Shown piece after piece: positions 2,708 to 17,368 of a DNA stretch of 64,000 bases (position 1 is the stretch's first letter; the number at the start of each line of letters is the position of its first letter). The DNA is from Acidithiobacillus ferridurans. Its GTDB lineage: Bacteria; Pseudomonadota; Gammaproteobacteria; Acidithiobacillales; Acidithiobacillaceae. Location of the stretch: NCBI RefSeq assembly GCF_003966655.1, contig NZ_AP018795.1, forward strand, positions 2,621,501 through 2,685,500, in the 5' to 3' direction. The translations under genes were made by a program, and so were the position numbers. The notes under the pieces are model-generated. The model saw nothing but the letters and a program-made list of their open reading frames with translations. It ran no database searches and was not told where the DNA came from.

Positions 2708-3523
2708 TCATCCAAATTGAACACCGGAGAACGTCTTGCCGAACATTTGTTCGCGGTAAGTGATTTTTCCAGCATCCTCACCAGCCGCTCCGGCGGCCAC
2801 CATCAAGGGAATAAGGTGTTCGCTGCGCGGATGGCAGTCCAGTGCGCCGGGCGCCTCAGTCCAGCCACTCAACAAACGTTCACGCTCTGCTGAGGATGAT
2901 CTGATAGCAGCACCCAACCACGCATCGAATTGTTCGGATGCCTCACTGGCCGTTGCTTTGGTCGAAAAGAATTCGCGCAGATTGTGATAGCTGTTTCCAC
3001 TCCCCACGACCAGCACGCCCTCGTCGCGCAAGGGCCGTAGGGCGTGCCCGATGGCCAAATGTTCGGCAGCATCAAGGTTGTGTTTCAGCGACAACTGCAC
3101 GATAGGCACATCCGCATCTGGATAAATCAGTTTGAATGGCACAAAAACGCCGTGATCCAGTCCGCGTTGATGTTCTGCATCAGCAGATATACCGGCCTGT
3201 CCAAGTAGTTCACGCACTCGTGCTGCGACAGAAATCGAACCGTGTGCCGGATAAGTCAGGCGATAGGTATGATCGGGAAAGCCGTAATAATCAAATAGCA
3301 ATGTATGTTGTTCTGCCATCAGCACAGTAGGCGCCGCACACTCCCAATGCCCGGAAATCACTAACACTGCACGCAGACGTTGTCCGATCGCAGCAGGAAT
3401 GCCACGCAAGTAAGCAGCCAGGTTATCCCACAACCCTGCCGGAAATCCAGGAGGTGGCTCCATGAAGAAGCAAGGCCCGCCACCATGGGGAATGAACAGG
3501 GTCGGCAATCGTTGATTAGTCAT
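2708..3523 (-). CDS. LigB-type (class III) extradiol dioxygenase, YgiD/DODA family
   Basis: A 271-residue cytosolic protein of the LigB/DODA family, which cleaves catecholic rings beside the hydroxyls using a metal held by histidines. The N-terminal LFIPHGGGP (His13), SGHWE (His59), GLDHGVFVP and SGNSYHNL motifs are present. The start at 3523 is chosen because it follows a GAGAGGT site and matches the family N-terminus; a longer open frame upstream overlaps the preceding gene. It lies 29 bp after the Old Yellow Enzyme gene on the same strand, so the two are probably co-transcribed. The substrate in this organism is unknown; quinol or catechol detoxification fits the neighbours. Confidence 0.85.
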   Translation of the reverse strand: MTNQRLPTLFIPHGGGPCFFMEPPPGFPAGLWDNLAAYLRGIPAAIGQRLRAVLVISGHWECAAPTVLMAEQHTLLFDYYGFPDHTYRLTYPAHGSISVAARVRELLGQAGISADAEHQRGLDHGVFVPFKLIYPDADVPIVQLSLKHNLDAAEHLAIGHALRPLRDEGVLVVGSGNSYHNLREFFSTKATASEASEQFDAWLGAAIRSSSAERERLLSGWTEAPGALDCHPRSEHLIPLMVAAGAAGEDAGKITYREQMFGKTFSGVQFG

Positions 3524-6325: not shown

Positions 6326-6537
6326 CGGTTTCCTCCGTAGGCCAATGCCCATAAAGTGAGTAGCACATTGAGCTTGAGTTCGTGCTTCTTCCACCGCAGG
6401 AAGCGTCGGCGGAACCTACTTTCAGAGTTTAGCCTATGGTGGACCAGTAGTCTGAACTCATGAGGGAAAGTATGCGCTGGGCAGCATCATCTAGCTAGTA
6501 GATTCCCACAGGATACTTAGTGTAATATTGCTCCTCT

Positions 6538-7231: not shown

Positions 7232-7834
7232 ATGAGCAAAATACTGGTGCTATATCACAGCCTTTGGGGGCATATCGAAACCATGGCCGGTTCTATAGCC
7301 GAAGGCGCACGGGATGTCTCCGGCGTGACAGTGGATATTAAGCGGGTGCCGGAAGGCTTGCCAGCAGAGACATTGGCTGCTGTTCACGCCAAAACCGACC
7401 AAGTCGCACAGGAGGCGCACCCCGATGATCTCGCAGATTATGATGCGGTCATTTTCGGCACCCCTACACGCTTCGGTAACATGAGCGGGCAAATGCGTAA
7501 TTTTCTCGACCGTACCGGCAATCTCTGGCAGGAAGGTAAACTGGTCGGCAAGATTGGCAGCGTTTTTGCCAGTACGGCCACGCAGCATGGTGGTCAGGAA
7601 ACTACCATCACTTCTTTCCACACTTTCCTATTCCATCAGGGGATGATCGTGGTTGGTGTCCCCTACAGTTGCCAGGAACTGATGAACATGAGCGAGATCA
7701 GCGGAGGTACACCCTACGGTGCCACGACACTATCCAAAGGAGATGGCAGCCGTCAACCCAGTGCAAACGAACTGGCCATCGCCCGTTTTCAGGGGCGTCA
7801 TGTGGCCGAAATTACTCAAAAGCTGAATGGATAA
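7232..7834 (+). CDS. wrbA: NAD(P)H:quinone oxidoreductase, WrbA type
   Basis: A 200-residue flavodoxin-fold enzyme that binds FMN and performs two-electron reduction of quinones. Family features are the N-terminal [16 protein letters not shown] phosphate-binding loop, [19 protein letters not shown] at about residues 84-102, and [12 protein letters not shown] with the catalytic-loop histidine. Length equals the family norm (about 200). The ATG at 7232 follows AGGAG; an in-frame ATG 45 bases upstream has no better support. It is downstream of and co-oriented with the HxlR gene and complements the Old Yellow Enzyme and dioxygenase in quinone handling. Confidence 0.93.
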
Positions 7835-13691: not shown

Positions 13692-14030
13692 CTATAGTGC
13701 CACTATGCCCGCCGCTACCAGCTCTTGAATCTGGTTGATTGCCGACACGGCGCTGGGCCATCCGGCGTAAAAAGCGAGGTGCGTGATGGCTTCGATGAGT
13801 TCCTCCGACGTCACGCCATTCTCCAGGGCGCGAGGGAAATGAAAGGCCATTTGCTCCGTCTTTCCCAGAGCGACCAACGCTGCACAGGTGATAAGACTGC
13901 GGTCCCGTTTGGACAAGGATGGTCGCTCCCAGATATCGCCGAAAAGCACGGTGTCGGTGATTTCAGCGAGCTTTGGTGCAAGATTGCCGAGGGATTGGCG
14001 ACCGTTTTGCGGGGATTCTTTCGGTGACAT
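13692..14030 (-). CDS. Carboxymuconolactone decarboxylase (CMD) family protein
   Basis: A 112-residue, all-helical CMD-family protein with SKRDRSLITCAALVALGK, FHFPRALENGVTSEELIEAI and HLAFYAGWP, matching gamma-carboxymuconolactone decarboxylase-like proteins. The CxxC of AhpD peroxidases is absent. It heads the CMD-AKR-SDR operon. Its ATG lies inside the ACATG target duplication of the transposon at 14032-17363, so the native ribosome site (AGAAGGAG) and promoter now sit 3.3 kb away at 17374 and beyond. Expression therefore depends on the transposon end or is lost. Confidence 0.85.
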   Translation of the reverse strand: MSPKESPQNGRQSLGNLAPKLAEITDTVLFGDIWERPSLSKRDRSLITCAALVALGKTEQMAFHFPRALENGVTSEELIEAITHLAFYAGWPSAVSAINQIQELVAAGIVAL

Positions 14031-14040
14031 GTGTTACGTC
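14027..14040 (+). repeat. Left transposon terminus with target duplication
   Basis: ACATG (14027-14031) is the target-site duplication. It is followed by TGTTACGTC (14032-14040), the perfect 9-bp inverted partner of GACGTAACA at 17355-17363. TG...CA ends with a 5-bp duplication are characteristic of Tn7/Tn5053/Mu-type DDE transposons. Inner repeats carrying TTATCCCA lie at 14057-14067 and 14094-14106. Confidence 0.88.
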
Positions 14041-14134
14041 CCGCAATAAATTAGGTGCTTTATCCCAAGCTGTTTGAGGTCGAAACGACGGGGTTATCCC
14101 ACGGTCTTTCGGCAAGAACACGCACTCGGAGAAG

Positions 14135-14160
14135 CGCGGGACAGCGATGGCTGTCCCGCG
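14135..14160 (-). terminator. Perfect GC-rich hairpin after the transposon operon
   Basis: CGCGGGACAGC-GATG-GCTGTCCCGCG has an 11-bp perfect stem and a 4-base loop. It lies 14 bp beyond the stop of the last transposon gene in the direction of transcription. There is no T run after it on the minus strand, so it may instead protect the 3' end or block transcription into the CMD gene. Confidence 0.45.
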
Positions 14161-14174
14161 CGGGATGGCTATCG

Positions 14175-14378
14175 TCAGAAGGGCTCTTTCTGCGCTTGAG
14201 GGGGACAGTGCCGGGAGTGGCTTATTTGTCGCCCATAACGGCTTTCCATCAGGCTGGACAATGCCGTGACGAACTGACTCAGGGCCGCCGCCGCTTCATC
14301 GGAGAGATCCGGCGGGAACAGCAGCGACCAGTCTTCCATCAGCGCCTCTGCCTCATCCATTTCGTCATGGGCTTTCAT
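14175..14378 (-). CDS. Small transposon-encoded protein of unknown function
   Basis: A 67-residue acidic, helix-rich protein (M-K-A-H-D-E-M-D-E-A-E start). It begins with a 4-bp overlap of the ATPase stop and is the last gene of the transposon operon. No motif is recognisable. Its size and coupling to the ATPase suggest an accessory or regulatory factor of transposition, but this is inference. Confidence 0.65.
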   Translation of the reverse strand: MKAHDEMDEAEALMEDWSLLFPPDLSDEAAAALSQFVTALSSLMESRYGRQISHSRHCPPQAQKEPF

Positions 14379-15175
14379 CGCAACGCCTCGATAGCCGCTT
14401 GCAGCAGATCATCGGGCAGATGGTTGAGTCCCTTGGGGACGGCCAGACGCAGAGCGGTATGGAGGATGTTGCCGGCCTGCCGGGGGAATCCCTTGGATGC
14501 CTGGCGGAGAAGTTCCAGTCCGGAGTCGGATAACAACGTGTGCTGGCATCCGGCGGATTTCAGGGCGTGCAGGACGAGGGCGGTAAAGCGTTCCCGTTCA
14601 AGGACCGGTGCCAGGCGGATGCGCACCTGGATTCGGCTGGCCAGGGCGGCATAGGGCACCCGGTCCAGGGTCTGGGCCAGATGCGGATGGCCCGCCAGCC
14701 AGACGGTGAGCATGCTCCGGGAATCGAAGGCGAAGTTCAGGAAGGCCGGGAAGTCCCGGAAGAATTCGAGCGGCAGGTTCTGCGCCTCGTCGATGACCCA
14801 GACGGGGAGGACCTGCTTGTGGTCCATCAGGTCATGGATATGCTCCTTGATGTCCTTCCAAAGTTGGGCCCGACGGTAACTGGGTTCGACCCCCAGACTC
14901 CGGGCCAGCCCGCGGTAGATGTCGATCCGTCCGAAGTCCGTATCCGCCTGGTAGATCACCAGATAACGGTGCGGATTCAGCGACGCGGTGAGGCTGCGCA
15001 AGGCCGTGGTCTTGCCCACCCCGGGCTCGCCGGTCAACAGGCCCACGCCAGGAGACTGTAGAAGCCATTGGAAGCGTTCCCGCAAAGGCGCCAGGGCACC
15101 ATCATCCCAGAGCTCCGCCGTATCCTTGTCCAGAGGCAGGCGGGTAAAGCCGAAGTGCTGGAGGACCTGGCTCAT
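14375..15175 (-). CDS. AAA ATPase of TniB/ExeA type, transposition helper
   Basis: A 266-residue P-loop ATPase. Walker A is GEPGVGKTT at residues 49-57, and Walker B is WVIDEAQNLP with Asp129/Glu130. The region AGHPHLAQTL with ASRIQVRIRL fits the sensor and arginine-finger part of TniB/TnsC/ExeA-type AAA+ proteins, which select targets and activate the DDE transposase. Its start overlaps the transposase stop by 4 bp (ATGA) and its end overlaps the next gene likewise, indicating coupled translation. Confidence 0.88.
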   Translation of the reverse strand: MSQVLQHFGFTRLPLDKDTAELWDDGALAPLRERFQWLLQSPGVGLLTGEPGVGKTTALRSLTASLNPHRYLVIYQADTDFGRIDIYRGLARSLGVEPSYRRAQLWKDIKEHIHDLMDHKQVLPVWVIDEAQNLPLEFFRDFPAFLNFAFDSRSMLTVWLAGHPHLAQTLDRVPYAALASRIQVRIRLAPVLERERFTALVLHALKSAGCQHTLLSDSGLELLRQASKGFPRQAGNILHTALRLAVPKGLNHLPDDLLQAAIEALR

Positions 15176-16494
15176 TGCTCATCCTCCCCGTAATACTTCT
15201 TATGGGCGATTTCCACGAGGCTGGTCGAATCGGCAGGCTCTTCCACGGCCGTATCGGCTGCACCCGGCTGATGGCGCTTGCGGTGGGCATTGGCTTCCCG
15301 GTCCAGGGGCGTGGCCCGGCCCAGATCTTCTCCTGCGGCGCTTTCTACAGACACCACCCGGCCGGCATGGGCGTCGACCACGAGGGTGACGGTCTTGCCT
15401 ACCAGCGCATAGGGGACTTCGAAGAACTGCCCCAGATAAGAGACGGTCCCATCCTTGCGCACTTTACGGGGCTCGCGGTGATAAAACAGCGCATCCAGGT
15501 GGGCCGCCTGGATGCCGAGGCTGCGAATCCGGGGCAGGTCCTGCTGGTAGCGGAGCAAGGGCGTCAGGCCCTCCAGACCCCCATGGGGCCGCTGGTGGTA
15601 AACCTGCTCCAGCCAGGCCCACAGCCGCGCATTGAGATCGTCCAGATCGCGGATCCGGCGCGTGTCCAGTTCGGTCAGAAACTGATCGCGGAAGGTCCGG
15701 TGCCAGCGCTCGATCTTCCCTTTGGATTCTGGGGTATAAGGGCGACAGTAGATCAGTGATATCCCCAACCGGGCACAAATCCCTTGCAGGGAGCCCGAGC
15801 GATAGGCGGCCCCGTTATCCACGACCAGCTTATAGGGCGCCCCGCGTTTCAACAGGGCCTGCTTGAGTACTCCTTCGATATCCAGCGCCGTCTCGCCCAG
15901 GCAGAAAGCGCTGTGGGTGATGAGCCGCGAGGCATCATCCATCAGGGAGACCAAATACACTTTGCGCGGCTTTCCGTGGAGGGATATCTGCGGGCCATGC
16001 ATCACGTCGCCATACCAGATGGCGCCGGCACAGTCCGCGACGAAGCTGCGCTTCTCCTCAGGCTCGCTGGCCGCACCCGCCGGTCGGGAGAGCCCATGAC
16101 GCTGTAACAGACGATGGATGGCCGAACGGGAAACCGTGCCCTGGGACACCTGCCCCGTAGACTCCAGGGCCTGCAGGATCTGGAGCAGGGAGCGGCGGGG
16201 ATTCTCCCGCTTCAGCCGGAGAATGGCCTCCTGAATCTCGGCTGCCAGTTTGGATTGCCCCTGATCCCGGCGTGGACGGGGAGACAGCCCGTCGATACTG
16301 TCTTTACGCCAGGCATAGTACCAGCCAGCAATGGTTTTATGGCTCAGACGAGTACGCCTTGAACCGGGAATGGCGTACTCCCGCCCGGCCAGCTCCCATA
16401 GGGTCTTCTGAAACTCTCCGCGTTGCAGGGGCCGACTGATCAGCGGGCCCAGTACGGACAGGCGGAACAGGGCGATGGGGTCGATCTGGGTCAT
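15172..16494 (-). CDS. DDE transposase with rve core (DD35E)
   Basis: A 440-residue transposase. An N-terminal helix-turn-helix region (SHKTIAGWYYAWRKDSIDGL, residues 51-70) precedes an integrase core with Asp163 (YGDVMHG), Asp226 (VVDNGAAY) and Glu262 (KGKIERW), giving exactly 35 residues between the last two. A C-terminal beta-rich domain (YLGQFFEVPYALVGKTVTLV) resembles the Mu/TniA/IstA-type C-terminal barrel. The start at 16494 is chosen for its AAGGAA site; an in-frame start 18 bp upstream is less likely. The core is intact. Confidence 0.9.
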   Translation of the reverse strand: MTQIDPIALFRLSVLGPLISRPLQRGEFQKTLWELAGREYAIPGSRRTRLSHKTIAGWYYAWRKDSIDGLSPRPRRDQGQSKLAAEIQEAILRLKRENPRRSLLQILQALESTGQVSQGTVSRSAIHRLLQRHGLSRPAGAASEPEEKRSFVADCAGAIWYGDVMHGPQISLHGKPRKVYLVSLMDDASRLITHSAFCLGETALDIEGVLKQALLKRGAPYKLVVDNGAAYRSGSLQGICARLGISLIYCRPYTPESKGKIERWHRTFRDQFLTELDTRRIRDLDDLNARLWAWLEQVYHQRPHGGLEGLTPLLRYQQDLPRIRSLGIQAAHLDALFYHREPRKVRKDGTVSYLGQFFEVPYALVGKTVTLVVDAHAGRVVSVESAAGEDLGRATPLDREANAHRKRHQPGAADTAVEEPADSTSLVEIAHKKYYGEDEQ

Positions 16495-16627
16495 GATGGG
16501 CATTCCTTGCAAAAAAAAGGGACCCCCATGCCACCAGAATGGGCTCTGTAATGGCAGTGACTAAAGTGTGTGGGGTCGGTTTTTTATGGGGAAGGCGCTC
16601 GTTTCGCGGAGATCCGCTGCATCCATA

Positions 16628-17179
16628 TCATGGGACGCTGACGGCATGATGGTCGAGCCAGGTCATGATGGCGGAAAGGGACCGTTGCCGGAGCGCTGAC
16701 ACCCAGAAATCGGGCCAGCCCACCGCCCGGCCCCAATCGGGAAAAGCACTGCGCAGGCGAAATTCAAATTCTGCACCGCCACCCTGCAACCATCGCCACC
16801 AGCGGCGGCAGGTGCTGCGGCATGGCGGCGAGGTATCCAACAGGGCCGGGAGACTGCTGATCGCATAGAGGGAAAGGCCCGTCCACAACAGCATCAAGAC
16901 CGTCTGCTGCAATGCCCAACCGTACCAGCGCCGCGGCGCGATGCAGGAAGGCAAGCGGGAACAGGTGTGCCCACAGTTGCGGCAAAAGAAACGGGAGATC
17001 GGAACGGGATTCTCCTGCCCGGAAGTCGTCCGATCGGCCTTGCGGGTGTAATGGCCATGCAGCCAGGGATGGCCAAGGCCACAGTGCGGGCATTGGGTGG
17101 GGCGATAGCGTTCAGAATCTCGGGCCAGGGTGTCGCAGTGATGCTTAAGGGTGGGGATACCTGCTACGATACGATGCAA
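16628..17179 (-). CDS. Zinc-ribbon protein, first gene of the transposon
   Basis: A 183-residue protein with paired cysteines CPHCGLGHPWLHGHY and CRNCGHTCSRLPSC, followed by an aromatic-rich stretch with CRSTCRRWWRWLQGG. The N-terminal half looks like the zinc-binding DNA-recognition part of some transposases, but there is no DDE core. I place the start at TTG 17179 because AGGAGGT lies 8 bases upstream; a longer open frame runs almost to the inverted repeat. It lies within the element with its own ribosome site, 133 bp upstream of the transposase. A DNA-binding role at the ends or target is inferred. Confidence 0.7.
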   Translation of the reverse strand: MHRIVAGIPTLKHHCDTLARDSERYRPTQCPHCGLGHPWLHGHYTRKADRTTSGQENPVPISRFFCRNCGHTCSRLPSCIAPRRWYGWALQQTVLMLLWTGLSLYAISSLPALLDTSPPCRSTCRRWWRWLQGGGAEFEFRLRSAFPDWGRAVGWPDFWVSALRQRSLSAIMTWLDHHAVSVP

Positions 17180-17312
17180 GGGCGGACCTCCTATGGGTTT
17201 GGTTGTCGTGAAAGTCTGGTTCACTTCCCACGATAACAAAGGAGATTCCGCCCTTTCTACATCCTCTGCATCCCACCCTCTACAAGAAGCCGTTCTCCAA
17301 ATCCCTCCGAAT

Positions 17313-17328
17313 GACCGTGGGATAAAGC
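17313..17328 (-). repeat. Right subterminal repeat of the transposon
   Basis: GACCGTGGGATAAAGC is the inverted match of the left repeats: 13 of 13 bases with 14094-14106, and GCTTTATCCCA at 14057-14067. It is a probable transposase binding site, 35 bp inside the right end. Confidence 0.7.
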
Positions 17329-17354
17329 GGCACACTCCTACTCAAATAACGAAA

Positions 17355-17368
17355 GACGTAACAACATG
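17355..17368 (+). repeat. Right transposon terminus with target duplication
   Basis: GACGTAACA (17355-17363) is the exact inverse of the left TGTTACGTC and is followed by ACATG (17364-17368), the second copy of the 5-bp target duplication. Confidence 0.88.

Follow-up and report, generated by a model that had tools for sequence, protein, structure and literature searches.

A compact, cargo-free four-gene transposon of the Tn6049 type in Acidithiobacillus ferridurans

Tn6049, from Cupriavidus metallidurans CH34 and the Pseudomonas aeruginosa plasmid pHS87a, is the nearest published relative of the element described here, a 3,332-bp transposon within a 64,000-nucleotide stretch of the Acidithiobacillus ferridurans genome (contig NZ_AP018795.1, positions 2,621,501 to 2,685,500; hereafter the window). 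In published work, Tn6049 is a 3.5-kb transposon with 12 copies in CH34, all carrying the ATPase gene gspA (PMC2864759), and its transposition module 'could not be categorized' in 2018 (PMC6210171). A further paper reports from Acidithiobacillus ferrooxidans a Tn6049-related transposon with a RIT element within its transposase gene (PMC3414803); this relative shares its genus and its gene plan with the window element. A review states that TniQ is near-universal in Tn7-like elements, that TnsE is the only known non-TniQ selector, and that TGT/ACA ends typify both Tn7-like elements and IS481 (PMC11406308). The window element is a further member of the known, widespread, little-studied and unclassified Tn6049 type, and represents a sister lineage to Tn6049 itself. 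A literature search found no paper on this exact lineage, although ISfinder, which that search did not cover, may hold a name for it.

The element occupies positions 14032-17363, with TGTTACGTC starting at 14032, GACGTAACA finishing at 17363 and all genes on the minus strand, as read directly from the window. Its features are as follows.

14032..17363, minus strand: whole element, 3,332 bp (direct reading, copy search, empty site in genome G012)
14027-14031, no strand: ACATG target duplication, left copy (direct reading; single copy in the G012 empty site)
17364-17368, no strand: ACATG target duplication, right copy (direct reading; G012 empty site)
14032..14112, no strand: small-gene-side end with the TGTTACGTC terminus (direct reading; end alignment of 22 elements)
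14059-14070 and 14094-14112, no strand: degenerate TTTATCCCAAGC and TTATCCCACGGTCTTTCGG, respectively, within the small-gene-side end (direct reading, repeat search)
17307..17363, no strand: zinc-gene-side end, with an inverted TTATCCCACGGTC site and the GACGTAACA terminus (direct reading; 22-element end alignment)
16628..17179, minus strand: DUF6431 zinc-ribbon and helix-turn-helix (HTH) protein, 183 residues, probable TTG start
15172..16494, minus strand: DDE transposase, 440 residues, with D163, D226 and E262, an IS481-like core and a sub-threshold Mu C-terminal domain
14375..15175, minus strand: AAA+ ATPase, 266 residues, TnsC/MuB-like by predicted fold (profiles, alignment, model, structure search)
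14175..14378, minus strand: 67-residue protein without a family match, its start overlapping the ATPase stop by 4 bp

All four reading frames are intact, and the element is a complete, precisely bounded transposon carrying only its own moving machinery. A preliminary description of this DNA had seen it as complete and precise, which stands, but had given it a range of 14027-17368, which takes in both duplications and had to be narrowed. Much else in that description was borne out: the 5-bp ACATG duplication, the zinc-ribbon gene ahead of the other three (here a DUF6431 zinc-ribbon/HTH open reading frame, or ORF), the chaining of transposase, ATPase and 67-residue ORF by two 4-bp overlaps, and the repeated subterminal sites. 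The latter comprise one TTATCCCACGGTC site per end, inverted, at 14094-14112 and 17307-17325 (19 nt, 95% complementary), with a degenerate copy at 14059-14070.

A search for the flanks across 17 genus genomes, the element's own among them, found them in only one other, G012 (85% complete, 5% contaminated). There, the left and right flanks match contig C268 at 2760-3099 and 3095-3431, and the 5-base overlap between these matches reads ACATG, in single copy. Over 1,832 joined flank bases, the alignment of G012 to the window is gapless, with 98.9% identity. G012 is a sister genome with an empty insertion site. Because its uninserted flank has a single ACATG, as insertion requires, the element was inserted at ACATG, and since a sister genome has the empty site, its movement was fairly recent. 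Recent movement had earlier been suggested from the intact frames, and uninserted sites in related genomes had been proposed as a check; both fit what G012 shows. It is highly improbable that the element is degenerate or static, with decaying genes. Its own genome holds a single full copy, as such decay might predict, but the four intact frames, the perfect duplication and an empty site with near-identical flanks argue otherwise, and a static element is contradicted as to past insertion.

Dozens of loci share this arrangement of genes, together with the ends and the catalytic residues. DNA matches to the element occur in 11/17 genus genomes, its own included, and 96 candidates with an encoded relative emerged when species genomes were scanned; the best 80 were retained, as 79 loci. 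At E up to 1, tblastn detected the zinc-ribbon/HTH gene in 74/79 loci, with several misses at contig ends and one weak match on the other strand (L080). The ATPase was matched in 73 and the small protein in 47, some misses again being contig ends. Among 22 elements with clear ends, 20 start with TGTTACGTC and all finish with ACA. Further copies therefore keep the ends and mostly the zinc-ribbon/HTH gene, as the preliminary description would have them do. Because these 22 span only 3,259-3,453 bp, there is no room for cargo, in keeping with the cargo-free plan first read from the window, where four genes fill the element.

Target duplications were scored at 34 distinct relative sites with both ends and flanks readable. 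Exact direct repeats stood at 26 of these (5 bp in 21, 6 in 3, 7 in 1 and 8 in 1), which is more than chance. Target preference is limited to the fourth position of the duplication, where a weak excess, mainly of G, was seen (0.85 bits across 21 sites, with a simulated 99.9% level of 0.66 bits per column and 35 columns looked at). Among 15 genomes selected for holding the element, G418 has 14 transposase matches (counting fragments), G425 has 11, G417 has 6, G426 has 2 and each of the other eleven has one. Across the phylum the element is rare, found in 6/398 drawn genomes including its own (E up to 1e-60), some of these being other lineages. An Acidithiobacillus caldus plasmid carries a match at 74.5%. 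Non-autonomous or cargo-bearing derivatives were sought in the genus, and an end pair with both flanks was found in 0/20 loci checked (of 28, L004-L031).

An Accumulibacter copy (L063:4165-9864) is 5,700 bp long, some 2.4 kb longer than its relatives, with the extra DNA between transposase and ATPase and a 5-bp duplication kept. One contig labelled Anaerolinea thermophila (L032) consists of exactly one element, its transposase 91% identical to the window's, and is probably a misbinned collapsed repeat. The Geobacillus plasmid pGS18 (L112) carries a trio of DUF6431, transposase and ATPase genes; the gene plan therefore crosses phyla.

Tn6049 has a zinc-ribbon protein, a DDE transposase, an AAA ATPase ('gspA') and a small ORF, in the identical order. 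Its copy on pHS87a (L113) also shows two 4-bp overlaps, at 6404-6407 and 7234-7237, as in the window element. It is 3,517 bp long, and it shares with the window element the lack of cargo, the TGT...ACA ends and short duplications of variable length. The differences lie in the sequences themselves: the transposases share 30% identity and the ATPases 26%, and Tn6049 ends in TGTGCATAAGCA where the window element has TGTTACGTC. Its duplications are 4-7 bp with no clear mode at 5, as opposed to mostly 5 (5-8) in the window lineage. Of 29 places with Tn6049 in plasmid records, 12 were examined, and these gave 11 distinct sites (L113, L118, L123-L132) with duplications of 4 bp in 5, 5 in 2, 6 in 2, 7 in 1 and none in 1; a 4-bp match may be due to chance in a few of these. 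The 4-bp repeat published for the pHS87a copy (PMC4739549) was seen again, as one instance of a variable length and not a single fixed length.

Defined broadly, by four-gene order, TGT...ACA ends and lack of cargo, the Tn6049 type takes in the window element. Tn6049 proper, defined by TGTGCATAAGCA-type termini and a close transposase, does not, given the element's other termini and distant transposase. The element is not of a new or unprecedented kind, since its gene plan is that of Tn6049 and is widespread in other loci. The expectation that other copies would share its ends holds within the lineage but fails for Tn6049, which keeps the gene plan with different ends.

Both lineages are present in the genus. 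Eight loci in G002, G004, G006 and G013 show 56-64% identity to the Tn6049 transposase, and 30-32% to the window's where matched (6/8), and hence belong to the Tn6049 lineage, not to the window's. We infer that they are the published A. ferrooxidans elements. In G006 (L144, L146-L149), transposase genes of the Tn6049 lineage are broken in two positions close to the catalytic glutamate, with the parts ~3.4 kb apart at each, an arrangement that resembles the published RIT insertion.

IS481 elements are typically single-gene insertion sequences, whereas the window element is a four-gene module in which the transposase has a partner ATPase and two further genes. IS481 is still the best named family for the transposase core (207 bits, followed by IS3, ISNCY and IS21), is matched by 41/41 family members (E up to 0.001), and shares its TGT/ACA ends. 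The score lies below the curated cut-off of 224 bits (NCBIfam NF033577), and the 440-residue protein has an extra C-terminal part. A Mu C-terminal domain is detected above cut-off in the Geobacillus relative. The catalytic D163, D226 and E262, named in the preliminary description, are unchanged in 41/41 aligned transposases.

An element of this kind might be a plain IS481 insertion sequence whose ATPase, zinc-ribbon/HTH and small proteins are passengers without a role in transposition. In favour of this are the family match, the label 'IS481 family' that public records give the Tn6049 transposase, and duplications of 4-8 bp, which fit the 2-15 bp, mostly 6, cited for IS481 (PMC10045372). We nevertheless consider it unlikely. 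In addition to the transposase's sub-threshold score (207 of 224 bits), the ATPase is present in 73/79 lineage loci versus 0/11 IS481 rows, and an ATPase gene lies near the transposase hits in 5/5 cases from other genomes in the phylum draw. In 56/61 relatives with enough sequence, the ATPase stop and the start of a small ORF overlap by 4 bp. Certain residues are also invariant: the ATPase Walker residues G49, G54 and K55, with D129 and E130, are kept in 36/36 ATPases, and the four zinc cysteines are unchanged in 45/45 zinc-ribbon/HTH proteins.

In a tree of 28 transposase rows, a branch with support 89/59, present in 86% of bootstrap trees, sets 16 ATPase-linked rows apart. These were picked for an adjacent ATPase and likeness to the window's transposase, so that their grouping is not independent and gives weak support. 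The contrast between the phylum-draw hits (5/5 with an ATPase nearby) and the IS481 rows (0/11) suffers less from such selection. The 11 IS481 rows, two of which (L159, L160) score under the IS481 cut-off, fall on one side of another branch (91/84), and long branches leave the deep order unsure. The tree omits fragmentary rows (L139, L140, L142-L149) and L135, which is a Tn6049 copy.

The predicted model of the ATPase (predicted local distance difference test, pLDDT, 90.3) matches ShCAST TnsC (7plh; Z 20.3, root-mean-square deviation (rmsd) 2.8, 243 aligned), MuB (8xvc; Z 19.1, rmsd 2.9, 226 aligned) and VchTnsC (7ufi; Z 18.9, rmsd 3.0, 243 aligned). Among the PHROGs families, phrog_296, named 'DNA transposition protein', is matched by the ATPase sequence (E 1.1e-25) and phrog_310 by that of the transposase (E 7.5e-51). 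These matches agree with the early view of a DDE transposase and AAA ATPase of the Tn7/Mu working type. As in phage Mu (MuA/MuB) and IS21 (IstA/IstB), the pair occurs without TniQ, and the fold match extends to MuB. The window element differs from both in being small and in having zinc-ribbon/HTH and small accessory genes, and its transposase reaches only 73 bits with the IS21 model (cut-off 160 bits, NF033546).

It is distinctly unlikely that the element is a true Tn7-like transposon that has lost TnsA, TniQ and its cargo. Such an origin would account for the TnsC-like ATPase fold (predicted, with Cdc6/ORC rows tied) and the 5-bp duplication, which with the inverted subterminal sites recall elements of the Tn7/Tn5053 type. 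It would also fit the TGT/ACA ends, which the review cited above (PMC11406308) ascribes to Tn7-like and IS481 elements alike, and a weak TnsB match. The last was among the only, weak, matches of the element's proteins to PADLOC defence-system models (mad8 0.0015, TnsB 0.0047, TRIP13 0.0061). However, the transposase matches IS481 (E 3.8e-61) far better than TnsB, and the tree places the single TniA row far from all others, on a long branch of unsure placement. No cargo is present, and no match to TniQ, TnsA or a resolvase was found in the four element proteins among the families listed (E up to 1; for the ATPase, the best 25 of 30), in line with what was first reported. This search covered those four proteins only, the other ORFs of the element being short or overlapping these genes. 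Because Tn6049 has the same TniQ-free plan, the absence of TniQ is not a recent loss. The initial filing of the element as Tn7-like is not supported, its transposase being nearest to IS481 and the tree grouping the ATPase-linked rows beside the IS481 rows.

The zinc-ribbon/HTH gene probably starts at a TTG behind GGAGG, or alternatively takes a longer form from an upstream GTG. In profile searches (E up to 1), DUF6431 was found in 43/43 of these proteins, HTH_28 in 21/43 (best 9.5e-6), an ISL3-type HTH in 7/43 (best 0.002) and an ISL3 zinc ribbon in 5/43 (best 0.0038). The predicted model (pLDDT 90.0) has two strands at the cysteine pairs, followed by helices. The best structural rows listed are weak: GerE, a LuxR-type HTH domain (Z 4.3, rmsd 2.9 over 56 aligned residues), and NrdR, matched by the zinc ribbon (Z 3.5, rmsd 3.0 over 45 aligned residues). 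The protein looks like a stand-alone DNA-binding half of an ISL3-type transposase. For likeness to TniQ, Pfam listed no TniQ among the best 25 of 39 families, and neither VIA-align (Z 4.3 at most; best 50 of 72 chains, Z>=2) nor a viral library (best 50 of 324 rows) gave any support. Foldseek against the PDB returned no match at E up to 0.001 among the best 50 of 94 rows. Profile searches with the 67-residue protein gave no family match.

We consider it likely that this is a self-contained, ATPase-dependent DDE transposon of the Tn6049 type. The transposase, with its IS481-like core and MuA-like C-terminal part, would bind the subterminal repeats, pair the TGT...ACA ends, cut the 3′ ends and join them to the target at a staggered cut, most often of 5 bp. 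The AAA+ protein, which by its modelled fold may act like TnsC/MuB, would load onto target DNA in an ATP-dependent manner, then recruit and activate the transposase. The zinc-ribbon/HTH protein would be a DNA-binding accessory, in target presentation or in shaping the ends, and the small protein an accessory translated together with the ATPase. Since neither a second-strand nuclease nor a resolvase was found, a copy-out, paste-in route for the donor is more probable than long-lived cointegrates. This mechanism would build on observed features, namely the ends with their duplication, the empty site, and the conservation of modules and active-site residues, and on the predicted fold of the ATPase.

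Several observations weigh against this account. A Cdc6/ORC initiator (1fnn) matches the ATPase model at Z 20.9 (rmsd 2.6, 250 aligned), and because such initiators match as well as TnsC, the fold alone is not proof of role. The Mu C-terminal signals of the window transposase lie below Pfam cut-offs. Two of the 11 IS481 rows extend only 273 and 549 bases beyond the match, so that an ATPase there could have been missed. The zinc protein of Tn6049 aligns to the window's at 22% and has no DUF6431 match. Eight of the 34 scored sites lack an exact repeat, and 44/79 loci went unscored. End-to-end junctions, sought in 15 genomes, gave one match, beside unrelated sequence, against 10 matches on the forward and 10 on the reverse strand for the reversed control pattern, so that junctions were not above control. 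Finally, the transposase-ATPase 4-bp overlap was considered as a family trait and rejected: it is present in 10/64 relatives with adjacent genes, the two genes otherwise lying within a few bases of each other in nearly all cases.

The insertion has also altered its surroundings, where one further feature adjoins the element.

13692..14030, minus strand: host ORF, start codon within the left duplication (direct reading, ORF list)

In the G012 empty site this ORF, which we take to be carboxymuconolactone-decarboxylase-like, is uninterrupted with AAGGAG ahead of it, and the duplicated bases hold its start codon. In the window, the insertion separates it from the AAGGAG-like upstream site, now past the right end of the element. 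Beside the full copy, the genome holds two partial copies, 95% identical (element positions 1-1806), and two short matches. The partial copies (L002/L003, G000:C1:134938-140359) are two left halves lying in inverted orientation on either side of tyrosine-recombinase ORFs. Both outer ends are intact, there is no duplication, and pieces of group II intron flank the pair on each side. The arrangement looks like recombination between two interrupted copies.

In this element, a TnsC/MuB-like ATPase seems to operate in the absence of TniQ, and a zinc-ribbon/HTH gene accompanies it. The central question is whether the zinc-ribbon/HTH protein does TniQ's job in target choice. We speculate, tentatively and with some doubt, that the lineage is an ATPase-controlled branch with a single origin from IS481-like transposases, independent of Tn7. 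In this branch, the role of TniQ as the adaptor that presents the target to a TnsC/MuB-like ATPase would be taken over by a stand-alone zinc-ribbon/HTH protein (DUF6431), possibly aided by the small protein. The element is compact and cargo-free, with four genes, precise ends, numerous natural copies and an empty site, and it offers a convenient system for studying how such an ATPase works in the absence of TniQ. The lineage also helps to place Tn6049, whose own module, in the 2018 paper cited above (PMC6210171), fell outside existing categories.

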